Source: a virus. From it: a stretch of 36,548 nucleotides of DNA. The stretch's first letter is position 1, and each line of letters begins with the position of its first letter. A model generated the notes under the pieces. The model worked only from the letters and a program-made list of their open reading frames with translations. It did no database searches and was not told the DNA's origin. Shown piece after piece: positions 1,880 through 21,816 of this stretch. The translations under genes and the position numbers were made by a program. Location: positions 1 to 36,548 of the IMG/VR virus record IMGVR_UViG_3300020469_000116; one strand, 5' to 3'.

Positions 1880-3379
1880 TCAGATATATGGTAAAATGGA
1901 CACTTCTTTAAGTGTCTCAAGAAATTGTTTATGATCTACCATTTCAAATTGTTTCTTTGAGTTGACGATAAACTCATCTTGTAAGATAGCATCTTTATAT
2001 AGATGATCACTATTAAATCTTGAATCAACAAAATCTTTAATAGCTTTTTTATTAAACATATTAATACCATTCATCACCTGTATATAATTATCGTGACCCC
2101 AATAGTCTAACATATCATCTGTCCTAAAAAGATCTAAGAACTCATGCTTACATTTTTGTTCCATAGTTCTAACCCAATCTGTTTTATTATCAGTCATATG
2201 TTTCCAGAATGGTGAATCATTTCTATTTGTACAATAATGTAAATTAAGAAACTGTGTATAATCAAAGAATATTCTATTTTGTACCATATTAAATCTATCT
2301 CTATTATAATCTAAGTTCTTTAATGTAGAGTTTAAACTTAAGAAAGTATCGACCATAAAGGTTAGATATTGATGAGTCAATGCTTCAAGTGGTTCAATAA
2401 AACCACCAGACAATCCTACTGCTAAACAATTACCAACCCATGCCTTTTTAAGGTGACCTGATTTCCATTTAATTATTCTATCTGACTTTAACTCCACACC
2501 ATGATTATCATTTAACCATTTATTATAATCTTCCTTTGCTTCATCATCAGTTGTGAACTTAGAAGAATATAGATAACCAGTACCAAATCTATGTTGAGTT
2601 GGTATCTGCCAAATCCAACCATTCTTCGTAGCTTCTGCTAAAGTATATGTTGGAATTGTACCTGTATTGTTATCTACTACTTGAGGTATTGCACTATCAA
2701 GTGGTAACCATTGTGATAAGTCTACCCAATCAACATTTAATTCTTTCATTAATATAGGATCAAACCCTGTTGCATCAACAAATAGATCTGCCTCATACTT
2801 ACCAGTTTTATCACATATTATACTATCAATATTATCACCACTAACATTTACCTTCACAACTTTATCAGTAATAAGTGTTATTCTATCTTTCAGATAATCA
2901 AATAGAAAATTAACTAATTTATCTGTTGTTATATGGAACGCATAATGATAATCTTTTAGTTTATTGGGAACAACTGTAGATGCTTCATTCCAATTAATAC
3001 CACCAGTATAAGTATCATTTAATAATGTATGAATACATGCAATATTAGATGATAGTTCATCTGATTGTTTACCATCACCATCTGTGACTACTTGACCAAA
3101 TCCATGATAATATTCTTCATTAGGAATCCAATTCTTAAATAATACTCCTAGCTTGAGAGTTGCATCTAAAGATTTAATAGAATCCTCAGTATTGTATCCT
3201 AAATTATTTTTAAATACATCAATAAAACTAGGTGTAGTACCCTCACCAACACCAATAGTTTTACTATCAGGATCATATATTAGAGATATGTTAACTTTAT
3301 CTTTCCAAAAATTCTCCATCAAAGCAGCAGTAACTAACCCTGAAGTACCACCACCAACTATTACTATATTCATAGACAT
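1880..3379 (-). CDS. flavin-dependent tryptophan-halogenase family protein
   Basis: Family enzymes use FADH2, oxygen and chloride or bromide to halogenate tryptophan or related aromatics. The 499-aa product has every landmark: an FAD-binding VGGGTSG loop at 8-14, GVGEGTTPS (43-51), a Lys at 76 (ATLKLGVLF) matching the catalytic Lys79 of PrnA, the GWIWQIP signature at 254-260 that blocks monooxygenation, YSSKFTTDDEA, FIEPLE with E332 matching Glu346 of PrnA, and RNDSPFW. Length is typical (about 500-530). After E332 the PrnA Ser-Thr-Gly is replaced by Ala-Leu-Thr, so the halide site may differ. The start is ATG 3379; ATG 3373 (MNIVIVGGG), giving an ATGA overlap with the upstream halogenase-like gene, is equally likely. 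No flavin reductase gene is seen nearby; host reductase may serve. Substrate unknown. Confidence 0.9.
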   Translation of the reverse strand: MSMNIVIVGGGTSGLVTAALMENFWKDKVNISLIYDPDSKTIGVGEGTTPSFIDVFKNNLGYNTEDSIKSLDATLKLGVLFKNWIPNEEYYHGFGQVVTDGDGKQSDELSSNIACIHTLLNDTYTGGINWNEASTVVPNKLKDYHYAFHITTDKLVNFLFDYLKDRITLITDKVVKVNVSGDNIDSIICDKTGKYEADLFVDATGFDPILMKELNVDWVDLSQWLPLDSAIPQVVDNNTGTIPTYTLAEATKNGWIWQIPTQHRFGTGYLYSSKFTTDDEAKEDYNKWLNDNHGVELKSDRIIKWKSGHLKKAWVGNCLAVGLSGGFIEPLEALTHQYLTFMVDTFLSLNSTLKNLDYNRDRFNMVQNRIFFDYTQFLNLHYCTNRNDSPFWKHMTDNKTDWVRTMEQKCKHEFLDLFRTDDMLDYWGHDNYIQVMNGINMFNKKAIKDFVDSRFNSDHLYKDAILQDEFIVNSKKQFEMVDHKQFLETLKEVSILPYI

Positions 3380-4728
3380 TCGTAACTAATAGTACCAAAA
3401 TCTTCAGGTGGGTCAGTATCACCTAGTGTGCTCAATCTATCTGCATAAGGAGCACCCAATCCAATAGCATATTCATAGAACATATTAGAATTATTCATCC
3501 AATCATAAGGTAATAACTTAGCACCTTCTGCTTGATCTACATGATGAGATATTCTATAATCTTCTTCACTAAATGTATCACTAATTAATACTTGTGATAC
3601 TGGTTTGCCAGGAAATATAGATGGCATGGTGAAATATGGTTCATCAAGATATTCTCTTGCTTCTTTTGATACTTTATTCCAAAATGGTGTATCATGCCTT
3701 GATCCATATTGATATGAGAAACATATAAATGACTGTAAAGTTTGCAGCACATAATGATTATAATTTAATTGCAATTCTCTACCAACTACCTCATCATTTC
3801 TTGCCTCTTCATTAAATAGATACCTACAAATCTGTGCTGAAGCAAACATGCTATATTGAGCACTTGTTCCAGGACTTCCAGGATCTATATTAATTAGTGT
3901 ATTACCATTCCTAAAATATCTTTTATTATCTGGATGTAGTATATAATTAGATACTCTTGGTCTAAATGTAGACTCATAACTCTTATACTCTGACATATCC
4001 TCATCAGGGAATATAGATTTAAAGTCTTCCCAAATTTCTTCTCTCGTACTTATTTCATTATCATAAAGATACACCCACACCTGTTTACTTTGGAATGGTA
4101 GTCCAGTAACATGACCATGTTTAGCAGCATATTGTATAGTATAATTAAAATTACCTGCTATTGGTTTCTCTATGATTGCATAGCTATTGGTAAACATAAC
4201 AGAGGGATTCATATAATCCTCTTCACCAATCATAGGCAGTTCTTCACTACAATCAATGACATAATCATACTCCTCACCATTAATACTAACCTTATGCTCA
4301 TCTACTTGAAATGAATCAATCTTTTCTTCTTTGATAGTAACAAAATCACCAAATATCTTTCCACCATCTTTAATAAACTCTGCCCTAAACATATCCATAT
4401 CAATCATATGACTACAACCTTGAACTACAAAGTTCTTATCTCTTCTATTACCCCATCCAATATATTTGTAACCACAACCCTCAACAGCATCACAATATTT
4501 CTTTAACCATCTTTTAGTAAAGAATATCTCTGACTCCATCATCTCTTGAAATGCTAAACCAGCACCATTTAATGCGTATGGACTTACTTTACTAGGATCA
4601 TGTATTAATACATATTCATCATCTTTATATGTTGTTAAACCATCGCCATATCTTTTATTATTAACCAAATCACATAATTGGAGAAACCCCTCCATACATG
4701 CACCTACTATAGCTATCTTTCTAGACAT
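3370..4728 (-). CDS. divergent halogenase-like flavoprotein, probably non-catalytic partner
   Basis: A 452-aa protein that aligns by eye with the halogenase encoded immediately downstream: an N-terminal strand-loop (KIAIVGACMEGF) in place of GxGxxG, a hydrophobic YDYVIDCS strand before the second FAD segment, and SRHDTPFW matching the family's R-x-D-T/S-P-F-W near the C-terminal third. The catalytic features have gone: there is no WxWxIP (GHVTGLPFQSKQVW sits there) and the FxEPLE stretch is replaced by NIDPGSPGTSAQ. It overlaps the true halogenase gene by 4-10 bases, so co-translation and a heteromeric complex are plausible inference. A CTAAATA box lies 20 bases before its start. It could instead have become a different flavoenzyme. 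Confidence 0.75.
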   Translation of the reverse strand: MSRKIAIVGACMEGFLQLCDLVNNKRYGDGLTTYKDDEYVLIHDPSKVSPYALNGAGLAFQEMMESEIFFTKRWLKKYCDAVEGCGYKYIGWGNRRDKNFVVQGCSHMIDMDMFRAEFIKDGGKIFGDFVTIKEEKIDSFQVDEHKVSINGEEYDYVIDCSEELPMIGEEDYMNPSVMFTNSYAIIEKPIAGNFNYTIQYAAKHGHVTGLPFQSKQVWVYLYDNEISTREEIWEDFKSIFPDEDMSEYKSYESTFRPRVSNYILHPDNKRYFRNGNTLINIDPGSPGTSAQYSMFASAQICRYLFNEEARNDEVVGRELQLNYNHYVLQTLQSFICFSYQYGSRHDTPFWNKVSKEAREYLDEPYFTMPSIFPGKPVSQVLISDTFSEEDYRISHHVDQAEGAKLLPYDWMNNSNMFYEYAIGLGAPYADRLSTLGDTDPPEDFGTISYECL

Positions 4729-4747: not shown

Positions 4748-5320
4748 TTATTTAGATGTGGGTAAATAATTAAAATTAATTAAATATCTTATATCTGAAG
4801 GTGGTGATCCTGCATGATAATTGTTAGAAGGAAATAATATTATTCTATTCTTCTTTGGTGCAACTTGATCAATAGGTTCCCAATTATAATTTGATGTATC
4901 ATTATTTTCTACAAATGATATATCATTCATATCTTTCTCTTTAAACAAATATGTATTACCTGTACAATTAGTGGGATAGTATATTAAACTATATCCACCA
5001 TCATCAGTCATATCTGTATGCGGTGGATAAAATTGAATATTATCACTAATACTTTTTTGTTTAACTCCTCTAATCCTAACTGGATGCTGATCAGGCAGTA
5101 ACTCATCTATTATTTGACCAATTAAACCTGCAAGTGTATAGTACATTGTATTATGTACTATATGATATCCATCATCAAGAATTCCTAGAACTTTTTGTGG
5201 ATAGCTATCATCGTGATCCATGTGATCTTGATGCTCCCATCTAATACCCTTAGATAATATTAAAGTTTCTAGATAATTAGCATATGATGGTAACAAAAAG
5301 TTATCATATACTTTAAACAT
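4748..5320 (-). CDS. 2-oxoglutarate/Fe(II)-dependent oxygenase
   Basis: A 190-aa double-stranded beta-helix oxygenase. Iron ligands are visible as H101-x-D103 (PPHTDMTDDGG) and distal H169 (NNYHAGSPP); R178 (SDIRYLINF), nine residues later, is the expected 2-oxoglutarate-binding Arg. The strands between carry the normal spacing (YSLIYYPTN..., NRIILFP). Family members hydroxylate proteins or small molecules, with succinate and CO2 as by-products. ATG 5320 is chosen; the frame also allows a TTG at 5326. It overlaps the 87-aa gene upstream by eight bases and precedes the halogenase pair, suggesting joint action on one substrate, which cannot be identified from sequence. Confidence 0.85.
   Translation of the reverse strand: MFKVYDNFLLPSYANYLETLILSKGIRWEHQDHMDHDDSYPQKVLGILDDGYHIVHNTMYYTLAGLIGQIIDELLPDQHPVRIRGVKQKSISDNIQFYPPHTDMTDDGGYSLIYYPTNCTGNTYLFKEKDMNDISFVENNDTSNYNWEPIDQVAPKKNRIILFPSNNYHAGSPPSDIRYLINFNYLPTSK
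4749..4755 (-). promoter_or_regulatory. late-promoter-like CTAAATA box
   Basis: On the minus strand CTAAATA lies 20 bases before the ATG of the halogenase-like gene, inside the last codons of the oxygenase gene. T4-like late promoters use a single TATAAATA-type -10 element without a -35, and cyanophage versions are often NATAAATA or CTAAATA. The same motif recurs at a similar distance before other genes in this window. Confidence 0.45.
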
Positions 5321-5576
5321 CGTCAAACAAATTGATAGGTATTATATTATCATCAAGTAGAAAATCATTTAACCTATCAGGATCATCAAAGTTCTCTTCC
5401 ACATTATCAACAAATCCTTTTAGATCTCTTATGAGTTCCCAACATGCTTGTTGCTCCAACTCCTCTTCGGGTGATAGATTGTCTCTCATCCTACCCAACT
5501 CAGCATAATACTCATACTTAAGAGTAATATACTCTCTAACTTTAATAAAGTCTTTGAAGGTTGCTACTGTTGCCAT
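5313..5576 (-). CDS. small acidic helical protein, hypothetical
   Basis: 87 residues, rich in Glu and Asp, predicted almost fully helical (FIKVREYITLKYEYYAEL; LSPEEELEQQACWELIRDL). The ATG at 5576 overlaps the stop of the ligase-like gene by 13 bases, and the 3' end overlaps the oxygenase start, so it sits in the middle of a coupled set. It has no recognisable domain. High negative charge would fit a binding partner for a basic protein or a DNA-mimic, but that is speculation. Confidence 0.8.
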   Translation of the reverse strand: MATVATFKDFIKVREYITLKYEYYAELGRMRDNLSPEEELEQQACWELIRDLKGFVDNVEENFDDPDRLNDFLLDDNIIPINLFDDV

Positions 5577-6748
5577 TGTTTCACCACTGTAATGTTTGCT
5601 CTTCTAAAGTCATCATCAACAAACTTTAGTGCTGTACCATTATATGATACCACATAACCCTCAGGTTGTGAAGCAATACCATCTACAAATGTTTGAATAT
5701 CCTTAACTTTATTCAACTGATCTATTATCATCTTCTTAGCAGTACGAACTGAAATATAAGATGCGACAGTAAAATATATCTCTTGCTCATACTTAGCAAT
5801 AAATGCTAAACCTGTTTTCTTCATGTCAATATATCTATTCTTACCTCTCTCTGATTTTTTACCATCAATCTCATCATCCATTCTGCTAGAGTAAAAATTA
5901 GCAAAATCAGATGCAACTCTCTTAGTATCAGCAATTGCTTTACCTTTACGAATTCTTTGATTGAAGTATTTTTTAAATAACACTGCCATGATGAACTGAG
6001 ATTCACCATACTCATGTATAATATTTAAGAACTTTGATGATCTCTTTAATGATCCAGTTGCTCTATTAATCAATGCAGTAAACTTAGCAGACTGTTGAAC
6101 ATTAAACTTAGTAACACCTGCTTCATCAGCAAAGTTAGCATTAGCTATGAATATATTCTCATCAGTATGAATAGTATGCAAATTCCAATTAGGATTAAAT
6201 ACTGCCTTCATATCCTGAAGTGTTTCACCAATGTATAATGTATGAAGTATTATACCTAACTTTGCTTCCATCACACTGATGCCCTTGAGTGAATCAACAG
6301 GCACTGCATATGTAATAGCATTAGGTTGGAAGGTGACCACTCGTTTGCCACCTATCCTAGCAAATTTCTTATCCTCTTCAGTGAACAGCAGATCACCCTG
6401 CATCACTCCAACTATACCAGTTTGAGATAGATATTTCAAACAAGTCTTTAATTTCCTTCTTAATAACTCTGCTTTATAATAACGATCTATATCCGTATCA
6501 TCATAACATACTTTAGGATTAACTTTATTGAATACAGATTTAGTACCAATAAAGAATCTCTGATTAACTGGATCTCTACCACATACTATAGCAGGTGCTC
6601 CATCCCACTTAGTTGATATTGATATATCACTCTTCTTGCCTGTGAGCATATTTCCGAAGTTTTGCAAAAACTCAACAGTCTCCAGTCCACCAGTAGAACC
6701 AGCGTTGAGAATATTATCTTCTAAATGCTCTAGGTGTGTGTTTTTCAT
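5564..6748 (-). CDS. conserved cyanophage protein with nucleotidyltransferase/ligase-like motifs
   Basis: 394 aa starting MKNTHLEHLEDNIL, a start I recall as usual for this family in T4-like cyanophages; an in-frame ATG lies at 6766. Function is officially unknown, but the motif order resembles covalent nucleotidyltransferases: K47-W-D-G50 (motif I, KxDG, the AMP-accepting Lys in ligases), VMQGDLLF at 115-122 (motif III-like), E363-G-Y-V-V (motif IV) and K375 (motif V), with 12 residues between motifs IV and V. T4 RNA ligase 1 has EGYVA followed 13 residues later by its motif V Lys. The helical middle (about 215-350) is unusually long, so this would be a divergent ligase or an enzyme reusing the fold. 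The gene overlaps the next by 13 bases. Confidence 0.75.
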   Translation of the reverse strand: MKNTHLEHLEDNILNAGSTGGLETVEFLQNFGNMLTGKKSDISISTKWDGAPAIVCGRDPVNQRFFIGTKSVFNKVNPKVCYDDTDIDRYYKAELLRRKLKTCLKYLSQTGIVGVMQGDLLFTEEDKKFARIGGKRVVTFQPNAITYAVPVDSLKGISVMEAKLGIILHTLYIGETLQDMKAVFNPNWNLHTIHTDENIFIANANFADEAGVTKFNVQQSAKFTALINRATGSLKRSSKFLNIIHEYGESQFIMAVLFKKYFNQRIRKGKAIADTKRVASDFANFYSSRMDDEIDGKKSERGKNRYIDMKKTGLAFIAKYEQEIYFTVASYISVRTAKKMIIDQLNKVKDIQTFVDGIASQPEGYVVSYNGTALKFVDDDFRRANITVVKQWQQ

Positions 6749-6810: not shown

Positions 6811-7413
6811 CTAACGAAAAGGGGGACCACATAACCATACTACTAGACTCCTTCTAATTCCTTTTGTAACAGGTGTAACTTGATGTAAACTATAACTAGG
6901 AAATGCTATAACTAATCCTTTCTTTTTAGGACAAGTATTCAATCTACTGGCATTTATTTGAAATTCACCGCCTTCATACTCATGTGGTTCAGATAATTGT
7001 AAAGTTAAACTCAATTTCCTTTGAGGATGATCTGATTTAGTTACTCCACTATCAATGTGCCAATTATAAAATGATTTGTCATCATTATATCGTGTATACT
7101 GTAAATCTTCACTAAATCCTGATACATCAAATCTCCAGTGCATCCCATTAAGACACCTAGAGATATTAGCTAATCTATTGTATATCCAATCAGTTTCTTC
7201 ACTAACTTTTAACCAAGAATTTAATGATTTGCGAATATTATTATTGACTGAATTATTATGTTCAATCTTACCACCTACAGTAGAATCCTTAGCATTAAGA
7301 GATTCACCAAGACGAATAATTTCATTACATTCATCATCAGTAAATCCATCTTCCCAAGTAGCAAAATCAATCTCATCAAATGTAGGATGAGGTAATATAG
7401 GATAAAACGACAT
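6811..7413 (-). CDS. PKHD-type 2-oxoglutarate/Fe(II) hydroxylase
   Basis: A 200-aa oxygenase close to the prolyl-4-hydroxylase/PKHD group. Iron ligands H119-x-D121 (YNWHIDSG) and H177 (YSLHQVTPV), followed by R187/R188 (KGIRRSLVVWL) for 2-oxoglutarate; the strand RKLSLTLQLSEP and the EGGEFQI turn are typical. Length matches the family (about 190-230). Phage members are common in cyanophages and probably hydroxylate peptidyl proline or other side chains; the target is unknown. It is three bases downstream of the glycine-rich fibre gene, whose collagen-like Pro-Gly repeats are an attractive but unproven substrate. A 62-base gap follows it, the longest in this block. Confidence 0.9.
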   Translation of the reverse strand: MSFYPILPHPTFDEIDFATWEDGFTDDECNEIIRLGESLNAKDSTVGGKIEHNNSVNNNIRKSLNSWLKVSEETDWIYNRLANISRCLNGMHWRFDVSGFSEDLQYTRYNDDKSFYNWHIDSGVTKSDHPQRKLSLTLQLSEPHEYEGGEFQINASRLNTCPKKKGLVIAFPSYSLHQVTPVTKGIRRSLVVWLCGPPFR

Positions 7414-7416
7414 AAT

Positions 7417-9336
7417 TTAGTAGATTACTCTAATGTCACCTCCATTAGGGATGACGGTATATTTAGACCCTGCCACAGCACGACCAGCAGTACCACCGCC
7501 AGGATTTGATTTACCCCAGTCACCACCAGCAACACCAGGTTGACCAGGATTGCCAGGTGTACCAGAAGTACCACTACCACCAGGATTGCCGTCATTACCA
7601 GGATTGCCGTCAGTACCGTCATTACCAGGATTTCCGTCATTACCAGGATTACCAGGATTGCCATCACCTCCAGGATTTCCTGAGTTACCTCCTGAACCAG
7701 GATTGCCTGGTGTTCCAGCATTACCTGGAATTCCTCCTAGACATCCAGGTCCACTTCCAGGTGTGCCTGGTGTGCCTGGTGTTCCAGCATTACCTGGAGT
7801 TCCTGATCCACCTCCTCCACCTGAGTTTCCTGAGTTACCAGGATTTCCGCTATTTCCAGGTGTGCCAGAAGTACCATCATTTCCGTTATTACCTGCAGTA
7901 CCTGGATTGCCAGGATTCCCTGCACCACCAGCGTTTCCAGCGTTACCAGGATTTCCTCCACTACTACTTAATGGTGATGATAAGTTAGTCCAACCTCTAC
8001 CAGCAGATCCTGATCCAGCGTATCCCTTAAATCCTTTAGTACCATTAAATCCACCATATCCTTTATATCCACCCTGACCACCTGTTCCTCCAGAACCACC
8101 TGATCCTCCAGAACCACCTGATCCTGCATTTCCACCTGATCCACCTGATCCACCGCTACCAGCACCACCGCCTGATCCTCCTGATCCTGCTTGTCCACCT
8201 GAACCACCTGAACCACCAGAGCAAGGTTGACATTCTTGTACAAGATACTGTTGATTAGTTCTAGTGTCTATTGTTATAGTATTCTGAGCATATGTTGTAC
8301 TGTTCTGTGGATACCTACTCCACCACTCTCTTCGTCTACTACTTCTTACATGAGCTATACTTTGTTGTTGAGTGCTAGTACCAGCAACTCGTTGCCATTT
8401 GTATGATGACCAACACCACTGACCTGGTGGCATGGAGAAGTTAGGGTTACCAGATTGACCTGGACTTCCATCAGATCCTGAGTTACCTGAACTTCCATTA
8501 CCTCCGTTGTTACCGCTATTTCCTGGATTTCCATCATTTCCTGGTGCTCCACTCGTTCCAAAAGTACCATCAGTGCCATCAGTACCATCACTGGTATTTG
8601 ACGATCCACTAGTACCATCCACTCCATCTACTCCATCATATCCTCCACCACCTCCTGCCCATATCTTAGATTCTACACCTTCACACTCAACATATACTAC
8701 ACGAGTAGCAGGTGCAGATGGATTGTTAATAGAAATAGCATTACCACCAGGTTGTCCAGAAGATGTACCTTTTGCTCCACCTGCTGCCATAACACCATCA
8801 CCTGCAGGTGCATTATTCACATATATGTTAAGATTAGATGATGCTGAGCTAGCAATAGATACAGCAGGTTTGCTAACATCATCAGATATTATTCTTCCTC
8901 TAACCTTAAGATATTTGGAAATATTCTTATTTAAATTTGAATTCCAGTTTACAGCAGCAGTAGGTGTATTTGGTCCTGTAAGAGTACCAACATCAAACTC
9001 TTCCTCCTGTTTATTAGGATCTTGTTCAATAACATATTCTTTAATAACATCCTTAACATCTTGAGGAGATATAGCACCACTAGTAGGTACACCTACATTT
9101 TCAGTGGCATCTAAGATATATGGTAAATGAGGAGTAGATGTTGTAGGAAAACTATTTTGAGCAAAATTATATGGTGCATCAAGGTCAGTTATCCTATGCC
9201 ACTCTGATGCTCCAATAGGTTTAGATGTATCACCTATCGCTGCTCTGATAGCACCAAATGATATCTCACTATTATTTGGTATATCTGTAGTTTTAAGTAA
9301 CTTTTGAGTAGTATTTGACCAATCAGGTGCTGCCAT
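7417..9336 (-). CDS. glycine-rich collagen-like adhesin/fibre protein
   Basis: A 639-aa protein with an AGGTAA ribosome binding site before ATG 9336. The order is: N-terminal region (1-145) with a phage structural FGAIRAAIGD motif; a beta-rich part (165-228); a first Gly-x-y tract (233-298); an island with WCWSSYKWQR and RRREWWSR (305-345); a GGS-rich tract (373-423); GYKGYGGFNGTKGFKGY; a long PGN/PGT/DGN tract (461-603); and a C-terminal beta motif AVAGSKYTVIPNGGDIRVIY. T4-type gp38 adhesins also use glycine-rich motifs packed as polyglycine-II helices, so a receptor-binding or fibre-tip role is inferred. It lies with two other large fibre genes. The long proline-rich frames on the other strand are artefacts of the PGN repeats. 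Confidence 0.8.
   Translation of the reverse strand: MAAPDWSNTTQKLLKTTDIPNNSEISFGAIRAAIGDTSKPIGASEWHRITDLDAPYNFAQNSFPTTSTPHLPYILDATENVGVPTSGAISPQDVKDVIKEYVIEQDPNKQEEEFDVGTLTGPNTPTAAVNWNSNLNKNISKYLKVRGRIISDDVSKPAVSIASSASSNLNIYVNNAPAGDGVMAAGGAKGTSSGQPGGNAISINNPSAPATRVVYVECEGVESKIWAGGGGGYDGVDGVDGTSGSSNTSDGTDGTDGTFGTSGAPGNDGNPGNSGNNGGNGSSGNSGSDGSPGQSGNPNFSMPPGQWCWSSYKWQRVAGTSTQQQSIAHVRSSRRREWWSRYPQNSTTYAQNTITIDTRTNQQYLVQECQPCSGGSGGSGGQAGSGGSGGGAGSGGSGGSGGNAGSGGSGGSGGSGGTGGQGGYKGYGGFNGTKGFKGYAGSGSAGRGWTNLSSPLSSSGGNPGNAGNAGGAGNPGNPGTAGNNGNDGTSGTPGNSGNPGNSGNSGGGGGSGTPGNAGTPGTPGTPGSGPGCLGGIPGNAGTPGNPGSGGNSGNPGGDGNPGNPGNDGNPGNDGTDGNPGNDGNPGGSGTSGTPGNPGQPGVAGGDWGKSNPGGGTAGRAVAGSKYTVIPNGGDIRVIY
7528..7956 (-). 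repeat. PGN/PGT/DGN collagen-like coding repeat
   Basis: Codons 461-603 of the glycine-rich adhesin. Gly occurs every third residue with Pro, Asn, Thr, Asp or Ser between (NPGNAGNAG, GTPGTPGTPG, DGNPGNDGNPG). Triplet periodicity is nearly unbroken, interrupted at GGGGG and GCLGG. Near-identical DNA units (CCAGGATTGCC-like on the plus strand) make it prone to recombination and length change. Confidence 0.85.
8068..8220 (-). repeat. GGS-rich polyglycine coding tract
   Basis: Codons 373-423 of the adhesin: a run of Gly-Gly-Ser units with occasional Gln, Ala, Asn or Thr. The composition differs from the PGN tract, containing almost no Pro, and is more like the glycine-rich motifs of gp38-type phage adhesins than collagen. 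Confidence 0.8.
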
Positions 9337-9346
9337 ACTTAATTAC

Positions 9347-12070
9347 CTATGATAGTGTGCCTAGGGATACAGATCCTATACCTGCTACATTTAGTATAGC
9401 AGTAGTACCGTCTATAATTATCTCAACACCAGTTGTAGCACTACCAACTTGTGATATCCAACTACCTTCAGCAGTTCTATGCTGGAATTGATTAGTTGGT
9501 GTGTAATATATCACATTTGAGGTATTCCATCCAACTGGTTCTTCTATTGGTACATCAGGAATAATATTAACATTAGTGTCTCTATCAGCTTGTGAAGTTA
9601 TAATAGGACCAGTAAATCCTCGTTTTGCAGCATAACTAAACACATCCTTTCTATAACTATCTGTTTTGATTCCAGCATATGCAGCACTACCATTACCCAA
9701 ACCAATCTTCAGTTGCATATCCTCCTTACTGAACCATAGGTTACCCGTATGGTCTCCTTCAGTGTGGAAATATGACATTCCACTACCATCTTGATCTCCA
9801 GTAGCTATGGGTAGACATACTGGACCTCCTGCATATCTCATGTCGAGAGCACCACCAGGTTGAGATGTATTAAATCCTACCTGAACTATATTAGTTCCAA
9901 TACCAGCAGTACCAGCAACACCAGTATTATTACCGTGGAAGTTTACATTTCTGTAGATATTTACAGATTCAACACCATTGGTTGATACATTAACAGATGT
10001 AGTACCAATACCAATATTACCACACTCAAATATTGATGTACTATTTTCTATTAAACCAGCTTGAGATCTTACATATCCATGATGGAATCTAACATCTCCA
10101 CCTCTATCACCTGCAGTGGATCCAATACCAACTCCTAGTGTCTCATCATTAAGGAATAACTCTGCTGCTGCACCATTAAGCTCAACACCATCAGTAATTT
10201 TAGGAGTACTAGTATTAAATCCAATATACCTAGCAAACATGTAGGTATCAGCTCCATTTGTAACACGAACATTAGCAAATGTACTTAACCCCTCAGGTGC
10301 ATTAATAGAAACACAAGAGACAATTCCAGTAGCATTATTAAAGTCAAATTTACCACCAGTATTTACATTAAGAACAGAACAATTTACTGTACCTAATGTT
10401 GCTATACCAGCAGGAGTTTGATCAATTAACTCACCTCTTAAATGACCAGCAGATATAATTGAAGTTGTAACAAATTGCCCATTACCAACAATAGAACCAA
10501 TACCAGTTATTCTATTAACACCACTAAACTCACCAGCACCTGCCATAGCTATGGTAGTAATACCACTAAGTTGTCCAGATGCAGAAATATCAGTAACACC
10601 AGTAATTTCACCACTAGCAGCAATCGAAGACATACCACTAAGATTTCCATTCATTACTATATCAGTAACACCCTCAATAGCACCATTCATAGTGATACCA
10701 CTACCAATGATGATTCCACCACCATTAAGAACGCTTATTGATGAACCAGCAACAGTAGTACCAGCAACAATTCCACTACCACAAGTTATACCACCACCAG
10801 CAAGGATACTATCATCTGCTTCAAGTTCATTACCAACAACAGTTCCTGATACATTGAAGTCAGCACCACCAGTTACAGATCCAGTAAATGTGGATACACC
10901 AGCAACAGATAAACCAGCACCAACAATTAATTCATTAATTTCTTGCGTACCACCAAGAGGTACAGTACCTACAAGACTACCACCAATTGATATACTACCA
11001 CCAAGTATTAAATCTCCTTCAGATATTCTAACAGTACCAATAAATCCTCCTGCTTGACCAGAAGCTGCTGTTGTATTACCTACTCCTAAGAACTCACCAA
11101 CATTAAGAACTGAACCAATTGTACTAACACCAGTACCTTTGATGGTGGTAGGTGTAGTGCCATTAACAGTTAATTTATCTACCTGAATGTCAGGATCACC
11201 AGCGATTCCATATGCTACTGCTGCATTTTGAGCAGTAGTGGCACTACCACTAAAGGTAGTAGCAGTGATAACTCCTGCCTCACCAATAACTCCACCACTA
11301 ATTCTAAGTGTTTGGAAGCTAGTTATACCAGTAAATGTACCACCAACACCATTAATATAATTAACAGCAACATTAGGTGAATCAGTCAGACCTGCTGCTA
11401 CTACTGATCTTGTTGCATTTGTAACAGTACCAATAAAGGTAGGGGCAATTATATTTGTAGTTGCCGTTACAGTTGAGAATGTACCAACATCTGCATTAAC
11501 ATTACCCTGTCCTGCACCTGTACTATTTGTGACTGTTATATTTTTAGTTACTATACCTTCAAATGTACCGACACCTGAAACAGGATCCATGTATATTTCA
11601 TATCCTACTCCAAAACCAGCACTATCTCTTGTTAATGTTGTTCCTATACCAACAATTTTTGTAGAGTATATTGTATTACCAGCACCAGGATTAACCCATA
11701 CTGATGCAGGAATACCAGTTAATTCTGATCCATCTCCTATAAACTTTTGTGCTATTATAGTACCACCAAGACTTATAGTTGCTCCCGTACTACCTACACC
11801 AACTTGGAAAGACTCTTGTGGAACTGTTGTACCAATTCCTATTGATGACCCACTGGCGACATTTACAACATTGAAAAATGTAGTAACTCCAGTAACTTTT
11901 ACATTATTAAACTCTGATACACCAGCAACAATTACATTACCTCGAACATCGAGTTGTTGTCTAGGAATGGTACTACCAATACCGACCAGACCGTTATTAG
12001 ATATCAGGTCATCAGTATCAACCTGAATACCATCTCTGAAATTGATGACAGTTTTATAATTGCTAGGCAT
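9347..12070 (-). CDS. large beta-repeat virion fibre protein
   Basis: A 907-aa protein. The N-terminus (MPSNYKTVINFRDGIQVDTDDL, then LVGIGSTIPRQQLDVRG) is of a kind shared by cyanophage fibre-like proteins. The body is Gly/Ser/Thr/Ile-rich beta sequence with recurring VGIGTT, GVSTF and LSGITTI phrases; around residues 450-540 a loose unit of about 15 residues (EGVTDIVMNGNLSGMSSI, then GVTDISASGQLSGITTI) repeats, as expected for a trimeric shaft or beta-solenoid. The C-terminal 150 residues are less repetitive (YAGGPVCLPIATGD, WISQVGSATTGVEIIIDG), perhaps the tip. No chaperone domain is seen. It follows the S74-bearing gene after 27 bases. Role as tail-fibre or whisker component is inferred from composition and position. 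Confidence 0.8.
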   Translation of the reverse strand: MPSNYKTVINFRDGIQVDTDDLISNNGLVGIGSTIPRQQLDVRGNVIVAGVSEFNNVKVTGVTTFFNVVNVASGSSIGIGTTVPQESFQVGVGSTGATISLGGTIIAQKFIGDGSELTGIPASVWVNPGAGNTIYSTKIVGIGTTLTRDSAGFGVGYEIYMDPVSGVGTFEGIVTKNITVTNSTGAGQGNVNADVGTFSTVTATTNIIAPTFIGTVTNATRSVVAAGLTDSPNVAVNYINGVGGTFTGITSFQTLRISGGVIGEAGVITATTFSGSATTAQNAAVAYGIAGDPDIQVDKLTVNGTTPTTIKGTGVSTIGSVLNVGEFLGVGNTTAASGQAGGFIGTVRISEGDLILGGSISIGGSLVGTVPLGGTQEINELIVGAGLSVAGVSTFTGSVTGGADFNVSGTVVGNELEADDSILAGGGITCGSGIVAGTTVAGSSISVLNGGGIIIGSGITMNGAIEGVTDIVMNGNLSGMSSIAASGEITGVTDISASGQLSGITTIAMAGAGEFSGVNRITGIGSIVGNGQFVTTSIISAGHLRGELIDQTPAGIATLGTVNCSVLNVNTGGKFDFNNATGIVSCVSINAPEGLSTFANVRVTNGADTYMFARYIGFNTSTPKITDGVELNGAAAELFLNDETLGVGIGSTAGDRGGDVRFHHGYVRSQAGLIENSTSIFECGNIGIGTTSVNVSTNGVESVNIYRNVNFHGNNTGVAGTAGIGTNIVQVGFNTSQPGGALDMRYAGGPVCLPIATGDQDGSGMSYFHTEGDHTGNLWFSKEDMQLKIGLGNGSAAYAGIKTDSYRKDVFSYAAKRGFTGPIITSQADRDTNVNIIPDVPIEEPVGWNTSNVIYYTPTNQFQHRTAEGSWISQVGSATTGVEIIIDGTTAILNVAGIGSVSLGTLS

Positions 12071-12097: not shown

Positions 12098-15000
12098 TTA
12101 TTTATCTTTGATGTCATCGACCTGTTGTGACAAGTCTTTGACCGCCTCAATTAATAGAGGAATCAGTTTATTATAGTGGACACCCTTAGTGCCGTCAGGT
12201 TTAGTTGATACTGCTTCAGGAAGAACTTTCTCTACATCTTGAGCAATGACACCAATGTCATGTCCAGTGTAGCTCTTATGACCTTCCTTCCAATCATATT
12301 CAGTACCACGGATACCCATTAGTTTTTCTAATGAACTATCTAAAATAGTGACATTTTCTTTAAGGTTGACATCTGATGTTTGACCATAGAAGGCAACAAT
12401 GTCATCACAACAATGTAATGGACCACCACAGAATGTAGCACCTGCTCCACTATGGAAGAAGTCACCACTAAATGTAGTAAATCCAGTGAAATTAACAGTA
12501 TCGTTGAAGTTAACTTCTGCAGAATATGCAGTATCAGTTGCAATAGCAACCTTAAATCCTGGTGCTGCATTAAGAACTAAGTCACCAATGTTAGGTTCAG
12601 TAGTGATCTCAGTTTTATTAGTACCAACACCAATACGAACATTGTTAACTCTAGCACCATCTGGGAATTGACCAGTAAATGCTATATCACCTGCTAGTTC
12701 AATACTACCACTAGATACAACCTTACCAGTAAAGTTTACATCATTGGTAAATGTAACAGGACCATCGAATTGTGATAAGATATTCTGTTGAATACCACCC
12801 TCAACATTAATTCTCTGCTTGACTGTAACTTCATCAAATACAACTGAGTTGGCAGATGGATCTTCACCAGTAATAGTAGGAATAGGAATACCAAATGAGG
12901 ATTCTTTACCACTAGCTGAAGAAATACGCTTGTTACCAATATAGAAGTCACCTCTGTTATTTAATCCAGTGTAAACAACAGAACCACCACCTCTATTTTG
13001 TGCTTGAGCAAGATATTCTTCAGTATCAGTCAAAGTTCTATTCTGAACTTGAGGTAAACCAGTTGAGTAGTTACCTGGACCAAAACCAAGGTATTCAAAT
13101 GTATGACCTGACGCTCTCAATATAGATGGTCGTCTAGTCTCTACAGCAAATACATTTATCTTCTTAGCAAGACTATCAATAACATGCTCCTTAGGAATAG
13201 TTCCTAATTGACCACGAAGAACAGAAAGTGAATCATTATTAGATCCACTCAACCCTGTAGTTGAAACTCTTACTATTTCTTCATTAATTTCAAGATACTC
13301 ACCAATTTTAAATCTATTAGCAGTACCAATACCACTAGCATGTTGAACAGGTATTACAGTATCAGTATTACTAATGTTAGTTTTAATGCCTACACTATCA
13401 CCACCATATAAGTTAAAGTATCTTGATCCAATAGCTTCTTCAACACTAACTGATTGATTGTTCTCTGAGAAAGCATGTGGTAATATTCTATATCCTGATA
13501 CAAATACAGGATCACTAACTGTCTTAGCAGTGAATGAACTAACACCTGTTAATGTAGTCTGTACATAGTATTCACCAACTTTTTGGTTATTATTACTATT
13601 AACAAGACTGAACTTAGCACCTTGTCTCAACCCATGAGCATTAGATGTTACAAATGTTGTTAATCCAGTTGTAGTATCAAAATCAGTGGATGCAATAGCA
13701 ACAGAAGGTCCAACTCTAAAGACGAATTGATCTGTAGTAACTGTTGGATCTAATGTAGATATACCAATGATAAGAGAATCTTTTGTTGGTACACTAGTAA
13801 CTCTATAATATCCACCATCTGTTTTACCTGATCCAGTGACTTGAATTACATCATTAACACCATTGATTAAACCTGTAGTAGGAACACCAATTGAAGTACC
13901 AGCAAAATTTTCAAAGAATAATTGATCTCCACCATTATATCCTGACCCATAACTTTGAATCTCAACACCAGTGATATTAGTAGAACCAACACCAACAGTA
14001 ACTTTTGCAGTTGCACCATTCCAACCGCCAAGACTATCTAATAGTCTGACATTATATTTGGTAGTGACAGCAAATCCAGCACTAGGATAAGCATTAGTAT
14101 ATGATACTAGATTTTCATAATCAACAAAACCATTGAATCCATGCTGTTTTGTTAGTTGAACTGTAGCTATACCAGCAGATACAGTTGTAACACTGGATAC
14201 ACCAATACCAACACCCCAATTAGTGCTGAACTTATCAATAGATTCTCTTGTTATTGAATTAAGAAGACTATTTGTTTCTACCTTACCAACTGGATTTCTT
14301 CTTGCGAATGAAATAGAAGGTGGTGGATTCTTTCTTATGTTATCTCTATCTAATTGTGGATAGAAATCAGTAATCTGTTGATTATATGTTTGAGATGTAA
14401 ATTCTGTTGGTGGTGCATAGTCAGCAGCAACAACATCTAATAGGTAAACACCATCACTTTCATTTTTAACCCATTCTGATAATACTTTTGAACGATAAAT
14501 GCTAAAGTTTCCCTTATTATCATTGACACTGAACCTAGGAAGGAAGAAAGTTCTATTGGAAGTTTCATCAACATAGCTACCAGTATTTCTCTTGACACCA
14601 GAGTTATCAGTATTGCTAAACTTATATTCCATATTATTAGGAACATCAGTTACAGTGAAGTAACCATTGTATCCTTTATCTGCTGTAGCATTATTATTGT
14701 TAGAATCTTTAATATTCTGAGTGAATACTATATCACCAACACTAACATTATGAGGTAGTTCACATCTTACTGTTACAGTGTCACTATTTTCACTACATGT
14801 AGCAATGAAACCATAGTTTCTTTGATAGTTAGTATCATTAAGACTAATACTTGTAGCATTAATATCAGCAGTCTTAGCAAAACCAGTTTGACCTGACTGT
14901 TGAATGACAAATCCATCAACAGGATTTCTAGAATTATCTGCTTGCTTAGGTATTACATAACGAAGCTTATATAATTTGTTATCAATACCTCTACGATCTT

Positions 15001-17362
15001 CATATCTCTTGAAGTATGCAGGTGTAGTCTCCTCTAATGTCTTAACATAATCATTATTCACAACATTAGTATAGAGATCACTATTTGTTTCAGTTAATAC
15101 ATACCAGTTATTCTGATTAGTATCCCACTGAACTGGATGACCTATACCATTAGGAGATTTATCACTAACTCTACTCTCTACTCTTAAACTAGTACCACCA
15201 TATAATGCAATAGGTATATTATTAACTGCATTGGAGAATGTACTTGCAACCTTAATAGCAGTTGAACTAACTCTAATAGCATAATATACTGTATTTGGTG
15301 CTAAGTTCTCAGGTAGGTCACCATCATCACTAAAGATACGGATAGTCTCACCATTAACAATACCAATATCATTAACAGTTAATTCAAAATTAGTATTAGG
15401 AGCACTAGCTGAAGTAAATTTAGTTCCTTGATGCGAATTAATACCAATATTTGCAGTTTGTACACCTACAGTTACATTCTCAGGCATGTATATTGGTGAA
15501 CTATATTCAGTACCACCAATAGAAACATATAAATTTTCATTTAGATTTGCACCAATTCTATAACCTTGAGTTAAACCAAGTGGTGCTACATCTTGTCTGG
15601 TGAATCCAGAGAGATATAAATGTGATGATATACCAGTCTGTTGTGTCTTAGGTATGTCAATCTGGAACCAAGTTATATTATCTAAGTCTTCTTCATATGT
15701 TGATACCCATTCAGGAGAGACCACATGAGAAATAAATCCTTGATCGTCTCTTAAAAATGCATCTTTTCTAAATCCATCTGCAACTAAAGCATATTGTCCA
15801 AAGTTGGAGTTAGAGTTAGTGATAGATGCGTCAGCACCACTATCCCCTCTTAAGTGACCATTAAATCCAATAGCGAACACAGAAACAATCTGTAAGACTG
15901 CGTTGTTTGTTATCTTAACATGAGTTTGTTCCCATCCACTACGATATACTGCTCCACTATCTAAGTGATAAACAGTATTAGGATCAGTAGAACTAGACTC
16001 TGCAGCTAATGTTGCACCTTTAACGGTACTGTATGATATTGACTCATACAATCTTGTTTCTGGATTATATTTAACAAATGCTCTATCATCTTTCTGCAAT
16101 GAAATACCAGTAAACTGGGCAACAACCATTGAACGGAAACCAGTTGCCTTGCTACCATCTGCCTTCATTCCCTGCATACCATAAACTGAACGCAATGAAC
16201 AGTTAAAGATATAAGGTGATGCACCTCTAACAGTATCAGATTCAATAGTTATTCTAGCAGAAGTAATATTTGTTGGTTTAGCAGGTAAATTACTTGGAAA
16301 ATCTACTATTAAATATGTAAATTCTGTGGTTGATATAACACTCTGAACGATTGTAGATATATTATACTGAGATACATTAACTCCACTAATTTTAATAGGT
16401 GTACCAGCAGTTAACTCATGCGGTATCTGAGTCCTTACTGTTACCTGTGATGTAGGTGTTAATCCATCACCTGCAATAATTGATGATACAACTAATGGAT
16501 CAGTACCAAGAGCACCAACAATCTCAGACTCCTCACGAACCATATCAAAGTCACCTTCTGCATTAGGCCACTCATAGTTAACTGCACGACCTGTTGGTTC
16601 TTGATAAGCATAACTTAGCTTATAATAGTACATGCTAAGGTCTGTCTCATCAAATCCCTTAACTTCATTAACACCATCAGCATACTCAAAACAAGTTAGT
16701 TTGTGATGAGAGAATGTTGGTTTAGATTGATTAATTGTAGTAAACTGTTGATGGTCAGTATATACCAATCCATCTTGGTCTCCATCAAAGAATGAAAATT
16801 GCCAGAAGTAACAGTTACCAGTAACTCTGAATATAGCAGTTTCTGGGACACTATCATCTGTAGGGTTTGGTACATACTTAGGACGCACCTTAGTCTTTCT
16901 AAGATCCATACCTACAATAGATGTACCACGAGGTATAATTATTCCACCATTAACTGAGTTAAATTTGTATAATACATTATCCTCTACAGTTAAATCAAAT
17001 TCACTAGTTAAGCTAAGACTAAATGTTGTTGTAGCAAGAGTTTCCGCACCAGCAGGAGATACAGATAATGCTCTAGTAGTATCTGTTGGATCTGGTTTAA
17101 GTGCGAATCCTGGTCTATTATCAATAAGGTGTTCGCCTGGATATATTAAAATAGTAGTTTTATCGTTTATATCATTATCCAATCCTGACTGATATGAAAA
17201 TCTAGCAGATTCTAACAGTGCTCTCTGTATCGTTTTAAAGGGTTTTGTTAATGAGTTACCCTGATTCGTAATACTATCCGTTGAGTCCAAATCACTTGGA
17301 TTCACATAAAGAATTCTACCTTCGGTATTCTTTATAAAATTCTCTAACTTATTTAAAGGCAT
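12098..17362 (-). CDS. giant fibre protein with C-terminal S74 intramolecular chaperone
   Basis: 1754 aa, the longest gene here, with an AGAGAG ribosome binding site. The N-terminus (LYVNPSDLDSTDSITNQGNS, then TKPFKTIQRALLESARFS) is a pectate-lyase-like beta-helix entry typical of tail spikes. A long beta-rich body follows, ending in a GVGTNKTEITTEPNIGDLVL repeat zone. The last 92 residues form an endosialidase-type peptidase S74 chaperone: S1663-D-V-N-L-K1668 supplies the Ser/Lys dyad, followed by YTGHDIGVIAQDVEKVLPEAV, HYNKLIPLLIEAVKDL and a short coiled coil. In this family the domain trimerises the fibre and then cuts itself off before the Ser. A CTAAATA box lies upstream. It is probably the major receptor-facing or baseplate-linked fibre. 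Confidence 0.85.
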   Translation of the reverse strand: MPLNKLENFIKNTEGRILYVNPSDLDSTDSITNQGNSLTKPFKTIQRALLESARFSYQSGLDNDINDKTTILIYPGEHLIDNRPGFALKPDPTDTTRALSVSPAGAETLATTTFSLSLTSEFDLTVEDNVLYKFNSVNGGIIIPRGTSIVGMDLRKTKVRPKYVPNPTDDSVPETAIFRVTGNCYFWQFSFFDGDQDGLVYTDHQQFTTINQSKPTFSHHKLTCFEYADGVNEVKGFDETDLSMYYYKLSYAYQEPTGRAVNYEWPNAEGDFDMVREESEIVGALGTDPLVVSSIIAGDGLTPTSQVTVRTQIPHELTAGTPIKISGVNVSQYNISTIVQSVISTTEFTYLIVDFPSNLPAKPTNITSARITIESDTVRGASPYIFNCSLRSVYGMQGMKADGSKATGFRSMVVAQFTGISLQKDDRAFVKYNPETRLYESISYSTVKGATLAAESSSTDPNTVYHLDSGAVYRSGWEQTHVKITNNAVLQIVSVFAIGFNGHLRGDSGADASITNSNSNFGQYALVADGFRKDAFLRDDQGFISHVVSPEWVSTYEEDLDNITWFQIDIPKTQQTGISSHLYLSGFTRQDVAPLGLTQGYRIGANLNENLYVSIGGTEYSSPIYMPENVTVGVQTANIGINSHQGTKFTSASAPNTNFELTVNDIGIVNGETIRIFSDDGDLPENLAPNTVYYAIRVSSTAIKVASTFSNAVNNIPIALYGGTSLRVESRVSDKSPNGIGHPVQWDTNQNNWYVLTETNSDLYTNVVNNDYVKTLEETTPAYFKRYEDRRGIDNKLYKLRYVIPKQADNSRNPVDGFVIQQSGQTGFAKTADINATSISLNDTNYQRNYGFIATCSENSDTVTVRCELPHNVSVGDIVFTQNIKDSNNNNATADKGYNGYFTVTDVPNNMEYKFSNTDNSGVKRNTGSYVDETSNRTFFLPRFSVNDNKGNFSIYRSKVLSEWVKNESDGVYLLDVVAADYAPPTEFTSQTYNQQITDFYPQLDRDNIRKNPPPSISFARRNPVGKVETNSLLNSITRESIDKFSTNWGVGIGVSSVTTVSAGIATVQLTKQHGFNGFVDYENLVSYTNAYPSAGFAVTTKYNVRLLDSLGGWNGATAKVTVGVGSTNITGVEIQSYGSGYNGGDQLFFENFAGTSIGVPTTGLINGVNDVIQVTGSGKTDGGYYRVTSVPTKDSLIIGISTLDPTVTTDQFVFRVGPSVAIASTDFDTTTGLTTFVTSNAHGLRQGAKFSLVNSNNNQKVGEYYVQTTLTGVSSFTAKTVSDPVFVSGYRILPHAFSENNQSVSVEEAIGSRYFNLYGGDSVGIKTNISNTDTVIPVQHASGIGTANRFKIGEYLEINEEIVRVSTTGLSGSNNDSLSVLRGQLGTIPKEHVIDSLAKKINVFAVETRRPSILRASGHTFEYLGFGPGNYSTGLPQVQNRTLTDTEEYLAQAQNRGGGSVVYTGLNNRGDFYIGNKRISSASGKESSFGIPIPTITGEDPSANSVVFDEVTVKQRINVEGGIQQNILSQFDGPVTFTNDVNFTGKVVSSGSIELAGDIAFTGQFPDGARVNNVRIGVGTNKTEITTEPNIGDLVLNAAPGFKVAIATDTAYSAEVNFNDTVNFTGFTTFSGDFFHSGAGATFCGGPLHCCDDIVAFYGQTSDVNLKENVTILDSSLEKLMGIRGTEYDWKEGHKSYTGHDIGVIAQDVEKVLPEAVSTKPDGTKGVHYNKLIPLLIEAVKDLSQQVDDIKDK
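12099..12106 (-). promoter_or_regulatory. late-promoter-like GATAAATA box
   Basis: GATAAATA on the minus strand, 28 bases before the ATG of the 907-aa fibre gene and overlapping the last codons of the 1754-aa gene. It matches the NATAAATA form of T4-type late promoters. It would allow this fibre gene to be transcribed separately from its very long upstream neighbour. Confidence 0.45.
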
Positions 17363-21005: not shown

Positions 21006-21124
21006 AATGTTACTCTTTTGTGTAATTTATCTAATGCTGCTTTTACTTCAGCAGTTTCTTCCCATTCCCACACATTACTGTGCTTAGGGTTTTTCTTTTC
21101 TTGTGTGAATGTTTTTTTAGTCAT
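21002..21124 (-). CDS. small ORF, 40 aa
   Basis: MTKKTFTQEKKNPKHSNVWE continues with WEETAEVKAALDKLHKRV and stops at 21002-21004. The evidence is positional: it overlaps the upstream oxygenase gene by ATGA and the downstream 116-aa gene by ATGA, filling exactly the gap between them. Very basic N-terminus, then one amphipathic helix with W residues. Too short for family recognition. Confidence 0.75.
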   Translation of the reverse strand: MTKKTFTQEKKNPKHSNVWEWEETAEVKAALDKLHKRVTL

Positions 21125-21816
21125 AATTGAGGAAACATTAAGTTTTTCATAGATGGAGATTGTGGTATCTCATCCTCCCAATCATTATAGGGAGACTGAT
21201 TCTGCATTATAGAATACATATTAGCTGCAACCACATATCTAGTGTCCTCTACATCAAGTGTAACACTCCTATGCTGTAACCATCCAGGAAAAATAATCCA
21301 ACTATTTTCTACGGGTGGAACTTCTACCACATCCCTACGAGTAATGACTGGATTATGAAAATCAGTTCCACCTGTGCTACCATCACCAGGATCTTTAAGG
21401 TAATATACACCAGCAAGATATGCAGGACTATGATCATGCCAAGGAGAATATATACCAAAATTATTTCTTATCTCTTCTTGAGAATCATTTAATGATTTGT
21501 AAGACTTGAATGCCCATGCTTCTGAATCGGTGAGAGTGTATCCCTTACCACCATAAGATGATCCTGCAAATCCAGTTTCTTTAATATAATAATGACAAGC
21601 ATCATAAAAACTTTTCTTTAATTTCTGCCAGTAGCTAGGGCAATTATCCTGAAATAGTGTATACTCTGTCTGATACTTGGGTGTTAGATATCCTTTTTGA
21701 TAATGCCCCTTTTCAATCTGAAGATCGACACTATTCATCATAGACTTCCTATCTTTGGAAGAAATGCTTTTACAGATATATCTTACAACACTTACAGGAA
21801 ATAAATTATATTTCAT
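21121..21816 (-). CDS. putative 2OG-Fe(II) oxygenase superfamily protein
   Basis: 231 aa. The core motif WHDHSPAYLAGVYYL (126-140) matches the conserved H-x-H/D plus SGVYYL strand of a phage/bacterial 2OG-oxygenase group; GGTDFHNP follows, then ENSWIIFPGWLQHRSVTL with distal H182 and R193 (DTRYVVAANM). Together these give iron ligands H127, H129 or D128, and H182, with R193 for 2-oxoglutarate. The first ligand pair is unusual (HDH), so iron geometry is uncertain. It overlaps the nitrilase-like gene upstream by ATGA. Substrate unknown. Confidence 0.8.
   Translation of the reverse strand: MKYNLFPVSVVRYICKSISSKDRKSMMNSVDLQIEKGHYQKGYLTPKYQTEYTLFQDNCPSYWQKLKKSFYDACHYYIKETGFAGSSYGGKGYTLTDSEAWAFKSYKSLNDSQEEIRNNFGIYSPWHDHSPAYLAGVYYLKDPGDGSTGGTDFHNPVITRRDVVEVPPVENSWIIFPGWLQHRSVTLDVEDTRYVVAANMYSIMQNQSPYNDWEDEIPQSPSMKNLMFPQL

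Follow-up and report, generated by a model that had tools for sequence, protein, structure and literature searches.

Homologues of the T4 DNA ligase gene g30 have not been found in cyanomyoviruses, and a 2010 review considered that these phages either carry distant, unidentified homologues or need none (PMC2984593). The ATP-dependent DNA ligases studied so far cannot do without their second motif V lysine (PMC4609770). Here we describe a gene for a protein of the DUF6267 family, located in a 36,548-nucleotide stretch of viral DNA (positions 1 to 36,548 of IMG/VR record IMGVR_UViG_3300020469_000116; this whole stretch is hereafter called the window). From its modelled fold and conserved residues, DUF6267 is probably a divergent lysyl-AMP polynucleotide ligase that is structurally closest to RNA ligases, a predicted activity to which we assign a probability of about 0.62. 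The family is a concrete candidate for the distant homologue envisaged in the review, being present in every Kyanoviridae-type genome checked and mostly in an apt gene cluster.

Open reading frame (ORF) analysis of the window places the gene on the minus strand at positions 5564-6748, with a 394-residue product that begins MKNTHLEH; the plus-strand frame across the same interval is riddled with stop codons. An in-frame upstream ATG would carry the ORF to position 6838, and the starts of homologues correspond to MKNTHLEH. The product matches the PF19782 (DUF6267) profile over its full length (1-376 of 376) with 372.9 bits against a curated cut-off of 27 (E 2.9e-111). It is also a member of phrog_455, whose function is listed as unknown in PHROGs, and older cyanophage annotations call the protein T4-GC 71. 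DUF6267 is an unannotated family without a solved structure, and no literature on DUF6267 or 'T4-GC 71' was found in a search that left subscription papers and the InterPro/Pfam clan pages aside. Members fall into two length classes, one of about 390-415 residues and one of about 300 residues with a shorter helical region. The features of the window gene are given below, with percentages of conservation from an alignment of about 360 DUF6267 homologues.

5564..6748, minus strand: coding sequence of the DUF6267 protein, 394 amino acids (PF19782, E 2.9e-111)
6716..6736, minus strand: N-terminal signature H5-L-E-H8-L-E10-D11, before motif I (H5 and H8 99.7%, E10 and D11 98.9%)
6599..6610, minus strand: motif I, K47-W-D49-G50, with the predicted nucleotidyl-lysine (K47 99.7%, D49 100%, G50 99.7%)
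6530..6553, minus strand: motif Ia, F66-x-G-T-K70-S-V-F73 (K70 100%, F73 99.7%; compare KSKGS of T4 Rnl1)
6389..6403, minus strand: motif III, M-Q117-G-D119-L (D119 100%, Q117 99.2%)
6308..6325, minus strand: P142-N143...Y147, probably at the motif IIIa position (P142 99.2%, N143 99.5%, Y147 100%)
6233..6244, minus strand: H169-T170-x-Y172, a family-specific invariant strand motif (H169 100%, T170 99.7%, Y172 99.5%)
5714..6100, minus strand: helical insertion, residues 217-345, from AlphaFold secondary structure (N263 and K338 99.7%; shorter in the 300-residue forms)
5651..5662, minus strand: motif IV, E363-G-x-V366 (E363 and G364 99.5%)
5615..5626, minus strand: motif V, K375-F-V377-D378 (K375 100%; position 377 is V in 95.3% and I in 4.7%)

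The original prediction had proposed that this protein carries the motifs of covalent nucleotidyltransferases, and had set structure prediction followed by a fold search as a test beforehand. The AlphaFold2 model of the window protein has a mean predicted local distance difference test (pLDDT) value of 88.8 and a predicted template modelling (pTM) score of 0.84, and that of a 306-residue short form encoded by a phage genome of 179 kb has values of 91.6 and 0.88. When the models were compared with known structures by VIA-align, RNA or DNA ligases occupied 49 of the 50 rows for the long form and all 50 for the short form, where chains of non-homologous end-joining complexes are counted as ligase rows by their LigIV numbering. 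In both cases the best match is the Naegleria RNA ligase (long form, Z 8.6, 3.8 A over 185 residues; short form, Z 8.9, 3.8 A over 180 residues). The short form also aligns with T4 Rnl1 (Z 8.4, 3.6 A over 162 residues) and with T4 Rnl2 and REL1 (Z about 7). The aligned ranges are collinear with the DUF6267 motifs. When the short-form alignment is extrapolated backward from its C-terminal end, which is no residue-level alignment, the motif V lysine coincides with Lys326 of the Naegleria enzyme and is at most one residue away from Lys240 of T4 Rnl1. The predicted fold of DUF6267 thus contains a ligase (nucleotidyltransferase) core, and the modelling evidence is decisive through the consistency of the VIA-align rows rather than through any single score.

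The catalytic residues point in the same direction. KWDG at residue 47, MQGDLLF at 116, EGYVV at 363 and a lysine at 375 are all found in the translated ORF where the original prediction had placed them. The four residues whose conservation it had made a second test are nearly invariant (K47 99.7%, D49 100%, E363 99.5%, K375 100%), and the long helical insertion it had noted is borne out by the model. The acidic residue of motif III is also invariant, although it is an aspartate (D119) where ligases carry a glutamate. A pattern of spaced motifs fits 282 of 293 family ORFs, none of 908 other ORFs of at least 250 residues, and 24 of 29,300 shuffled sequences; because the pattern was composed after the family had been inspected, these counts show specificity and are no independent discovery. 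Judged from these sequences, the motifs are evidently not due to chance. The HLEHxED signature and the HTxY strand are specific to the family, and range alignment of the folds would place the former at the SLEN segment of T4 Rnl2. The roles of single motif residues used here are general knowledge, apart from those described in PMC4609770 and PMC6035275.

Several observations weigh against the assignment of DUF6267 as a ligase. Foldseek searches of the Protein Data Bank (PDB) returned no significant match for the long form and no E value below 0.001 for either form. For the short form the top rows were mostly ligases, the first being an archaeal RNA ligase at a non-significant E of 0.024. In the long-form search the helical insertion dominated the comparison, a problem that the use of VIA-align and of the short form resolved; even so, VIA-align Z values of 8-9 for these models are moderate. 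At the sequence level, scans of DUF6267 against Pfam, PHROGs and NCBIfam matched no known ligase family, sequence and profile searches of the PDB matched no chain, and none of PF09511, PF09414, PF01068 and PF01653 is among the Pfam families listed for 76 DUF6267 members. No ligase family profile was matched and hhalign gave no match with T4-type Rnl2, whereas with T4-type Rnl1 hhalign aligned only EGYVVSYNGTALKF with EGYVAVMKDGSHFKI, weakly (P 0.043). This is the motif IV-V segment, and the alignment supports the resemblance to T4 RNA ligase 1 that had been perceived there.

The architecture and context of the protein provide further points of this kind. The chain ends 19 residues past K375, and in the model only a helix at residues 379-387 follows motif V; an OB (oligonucleotide/oligosaccharide-binding) domain, motif VI and a C-terminal helper domain are all lacking after that motif. 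The second motif V lysine (KxK) is replaced by Val or Ile at position 377 in every DUF6267 sequence and is never a lysine. NAD+-dependent ligases typically carry a single lysine in motif V as well. No polynucleotide kinase (PNK)-type kinase exceeds the cut-off in ten cyanophage genomes. The phages EniLVp02 and XaC1 carry DUF6267 beside DNA and RNA ligases, and the host supplies a ligase of its own, which restrains any claim that one is missing. In the window virus, moreover, the gene lies among 2-oxoglutarate (2OG) oxygenase, halogenase-like and tail genes rather than replication genes, indicating that a location in the replication cluster is not universal.

Since the second motif V position is V or I throughout, DUF6267 is a superfamily-level relative that is placed in no named ligase family. 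At the level of predicted fold and active site, it is a new family within the superfamily of polynucleotide ligases and capping enzymes (lysyl-NMP transferases, where NMP is a nucleoside monophosphate). An 'RNA ligase' of Agrobacterium phage Atu_ph07, linked to the family by Foldseek, was dropped as a bridge, as the genome of that phage gave no DUF6267 match in a profile search.

If DUF6267 is a ligase, Lys47-AMP would most likely arise by attack of Lys47 on a nucleotide cofactor, with ATP as the default. From there the AMP would move to a 5' phosphate at an end of the nucleic acid, and a 3' OH would attack this end and so seal the strand. The helical domain inside the protein, which contains N263 and K338, may hold the substrate and so replace the extra domain of known ligases. 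The protein would act within the replication and recombination gene set of the phage, often together with an adenylyltransferase-like partner of the HIGH family. The fold and the catalytic residues are supported by structure prediction and by conservation; from these we infer the formation of Lys47-AMP, and the nearest folds suggest its transfer to a 5' phosphate and the sealing step. DNA is weakly favoured over RNA as the substrate because of the position of the gene and because none of the ten cyanophages shows a PNK-type kinase, whereas the RNA-ligase-like fold and a kinase encoded by pelagiphage HTVC008M count against DNA. A donor other than ATP is thinkable, given the altered motif V and a partner that resembles adenylyltransferases.

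The same evidence bears on a rather doubtful alternative, in which DUF6267 is an RNA-repair ligase that reseals tRNAs cut by nucleases of the host or of rival phages, in the manner of T4 Rnl1, and has no role in DNA replication. Its closest folds are all RNA ligases, the EGYV...K spacing is common to T4 Rnl1, and in HTVC008M the kinase just mentioned, a Zeta-toxin/AAA_33 P-loop kinase (gp129, L394:8063-8725), is encoded two genes downstream of DUF6267, as also at a few related loci. However, the cyanophage gene sits in a DNA replication cluster, no PNK-type kinase was detected above the cut-off in the ten cyanophages, and P-SSM4 has DUF6267 but no phage tRNAs (table in PMC2984593). EniLVp02 and XaC1, for their part, already own Rnl1- and Rnl2-type ligases.

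The distribution of recognised ligases bears on what a DUF6267 ligase would do in DNA replication. Profile searches with PF01068, PF01653, PF09414 and PF09511 gave zero matches in ten cyanophage genomes and one methylophage, and PF01068 and PF09414 are likewise absent from S-ShM2, HTVC008M and nine viral contigs. Altogether, 12 genomes of cyanophage type lack a recognised ligase of the families for which each was searched. As positive cases, T4, EniLVp02 and XaC1 have PF01068, PF09414 and PF09511, and a cyanobacterial control genome has a PF01653 ligase. DUF6267, for its part, is present in all named cyanophage-type genomes examined. The original prediction had spoken of a second, unrecognised ligase in many cyanophages; the ligase-like fold and active site hold up, but 'second' is probably wrong because the ten cyanophage genomes have no recognised ligase of these four families, and DUF6267 would probably be the first. 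The simple claim that it replaces DNA ligase is weakened by EniLVp02 and XaC1, where its co-occurrence with DNA and RNA ligases indicates that it does not simply fill the role of gp30.

A more ambitious reading, which we consider unlikely, is that DUF6267 is the long-missing ligase of cyanomyovirus replication and recombination. It would then represent a new family with an internal helical domain in place of an OB or C-terminal domain, without the second motif V lysine, and coupled to a partner resembling nicotinamide mononucleotide (NMN) adenylyltransferases, which could supply or recycle the cofactor, for example by returning NMN to NAD+.

The gene neighbourhood introduces this partner. DUF6267 lies in the replication cluster of S-CAM1, Syn2, S-PM2, syn9, P-HM2, S-PRM1, DSL-LC02, P-SSM4 and S-ShM2, where the order, as far as names allow, is gp43, uvsX, gp41, mazG, an unknown gene, DUF6267 and a 'cytidyltransferase', toward gp61/nrdA. 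S-SKS1 is an exception, with DUF6267 amid small unknown genes, and in a Vibrio phage the gene lies between helicase genes. With all groups summed, a nucleotidyltransferase gene occurs within 1.5 kb downstream at 142 of the 246 loci with downstream room. The phrog_455 profile spans both proteins, and the best match in BFVD is a 591-residue DUF6267-nucleotidyltransferase fusion from S-PM2 (UniProt A0A0M6VVW4). An older record of S-PM2, NC_006820 (L349:6992-8771), instead has DUF6267 split over two frames (103037-103534 and 103530-104222); the two records disagree, and a sequencing frameshift is one possibility. The partner, a HIGH-type nucleotidyltransferase, carries GRFNPPTxGH and SAxxMR signatures. 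In NCBIfam it repeatedly matches adenylyltransferases of nicotinamide or nicotinate nucleotide, in every case with a score far below the cut-off. Profile comparison with the PDB gave MJ0541 (1f9a) as its top match (E 0.19), which we take to be an archaeal NMN adenylyltransferase. As a lead only, these matches suggest that the label 'cytidyltransferase' may be a misnomer.

The partner also bears on an improbable alternative, in which DUF6267 is a lysyl-NMP transferase that ligates nothing. It would instead deliver AMP or another NMP to a small molecule, a protein or a DNA base, and so perform one reaction in a pathway shared with the neighbouring HIGH-type enzyme. The frequent adjacency of the two genes, their fusion in S-PM2, the lack of both an OB domain and the second motif V lysine, and the family-specific invariants H5, H8, H169, N263 and K338 would all be consistent with such a role. 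The nearest folds, however, are strand-joining enzymes, and the partner is not near the gene in the clade of the window virus or at many short-form loci.

The universal loss of the second motif V lysine could also mean that DUF6267 keeps the ligase fold without lysine adenylation, as a nucleic-acid-binding protein or one that performs step 3 only. This is very unlikely, as members that share only 25-35% identity keep the motif I lysine and five further residues of the catalytic motifs at near 100%, an argument for active chemistry. The idea that the motifs arose by chance in an unrelated fold, to which the lack of a hidden Markov model (HMM)-level match to known ligases and the moderate Z values might point, is largely refuted by the two models, the almost ligase-only VIA-align rows and the motif conservation.

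A polynucleotide ligase of this kind would be widely distributed. Searches with tblastn identified DUF6267 in 471 phage records, with hosts that include Synechococcus, Prochlorococcus, Pelagibacter and Methylophilales and, in a few cases, Vibrio, Xanthomonas, Stenotrophomonas and Pseudoalteromonas. The family is also found at hundreds of IMG/VR loci. There are 38 matches in bacterial or archaeal assemblies, mostly marine metagenome bins, and these look like viral contigs. No relatives were found among viral contigs when the Vibrio-phage protein was the query. In the Pseudomonas jumbo phage PA5oct (L388, record 151145-151420 plus flanks), a 449-residue frame contains EKIDG and EGYVIRTPSMQVKIVDK; from its sequence it looks like a remote DUF6267 relative that shares a K-x-V-D motif V and has extra C-terminal sequence. 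If DUF6267 is active, a function would be assigned to a gene that ranks among the most widespread unknowns in ocean viruses, and the known ligase architectures would gain one with an altered motif V that is possibly useful as a reagent.

Other genes near DUF6267 were also noted. The window encodes 2OG-Fe(II) oxygenase-like proteins at 4748-5326, 6811-7413 and 21121-21816 (all minus strand), the first two of which flank the DUF6267 gene and its small 87-residue neighbour. Two adjoining genes at 1880-4728 (minus strand) belong by their matches to phrog_2928, a phage tryptophan-halogenase family, although the match at 3370-4728 is weak. A 639-residue glycine-rich protein with collagen-like repeats and weak tail-fibre matches is encoded at 7417-9336 (minus strand), adjoined by very long ORFs at 9347-12070 and 12098-17362. 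Elsewhere, genes just upstream of DUF6267 (for example L394:5268-6326 and L036:1602-2429) sometimes carry a TDx...SxK signature like that of PD-(D/E)xK nucleases. A strict version of this pattern occurs in 26 of 194 upstream neighbours, which all belong to a single homology cluster, versus 2 of 1,027 other ORFs; the signature was read by eye, and no Pfam model supports it. HTVC008M also encodes, next to its DNA polymerase, a protein with a DruA (Druantia) domain (gp122, L394:1036-2160).

Among characterised enzymes, DUF6267 most resembles in structure the Naegleria gruberi RNA ligase (NgrRnl), which both models match best, with Z 8.6-8.9 over 180-185 residues. Both proteins have a K-x-D-G motif I, and K375 extrapolates linearly to Lys326, but NgrRnl extends beyond the aligned part by an additional N-terminal domain and sequence similarity between the two was not detected. 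Presumably, NgrRnl also differs in having both motif V lysines and in lacking a long helical insertion before motif IV. T4 Rnl1 (PF09511) shares the EGYV...K arrangement (spacing 12 versus 13), a KSKGS-like motif Ia and the fold (Z 8.4), whereas its motif III contains E159, its motif V reads KIK, its C-terminal domain is helical, and it gives no HMM match. The T4 Rnl2 and RNA-editing ligase family (PF09414) is alike in fold (Z 6.9-8.1), in motif order and in a SLEN-like N-terminal segment; DUF6267 differs from it by the change from E to D in motif III, the loss of the second motif V lysine, the absence of a C-terminal domain and the lack of an HMM match. With ATP-dependent DNA ligases (PF01068), such as T4 gp30, it shares the core fold (Z about 5-6.5) and a place in the phage replication cluster, but it has no OB domain, motif VI or HMM match, and motif V of gp30 is KFK. 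A further parallel is C12orf29 (RLIG1), a eukaryotic and giant-virus family that is likened to DUF6267 here by its published description. It too was a KxDG orphan whose top DALI match was NgrRnl, and it auto-adenylates and ligates RNA (PMC11071452).
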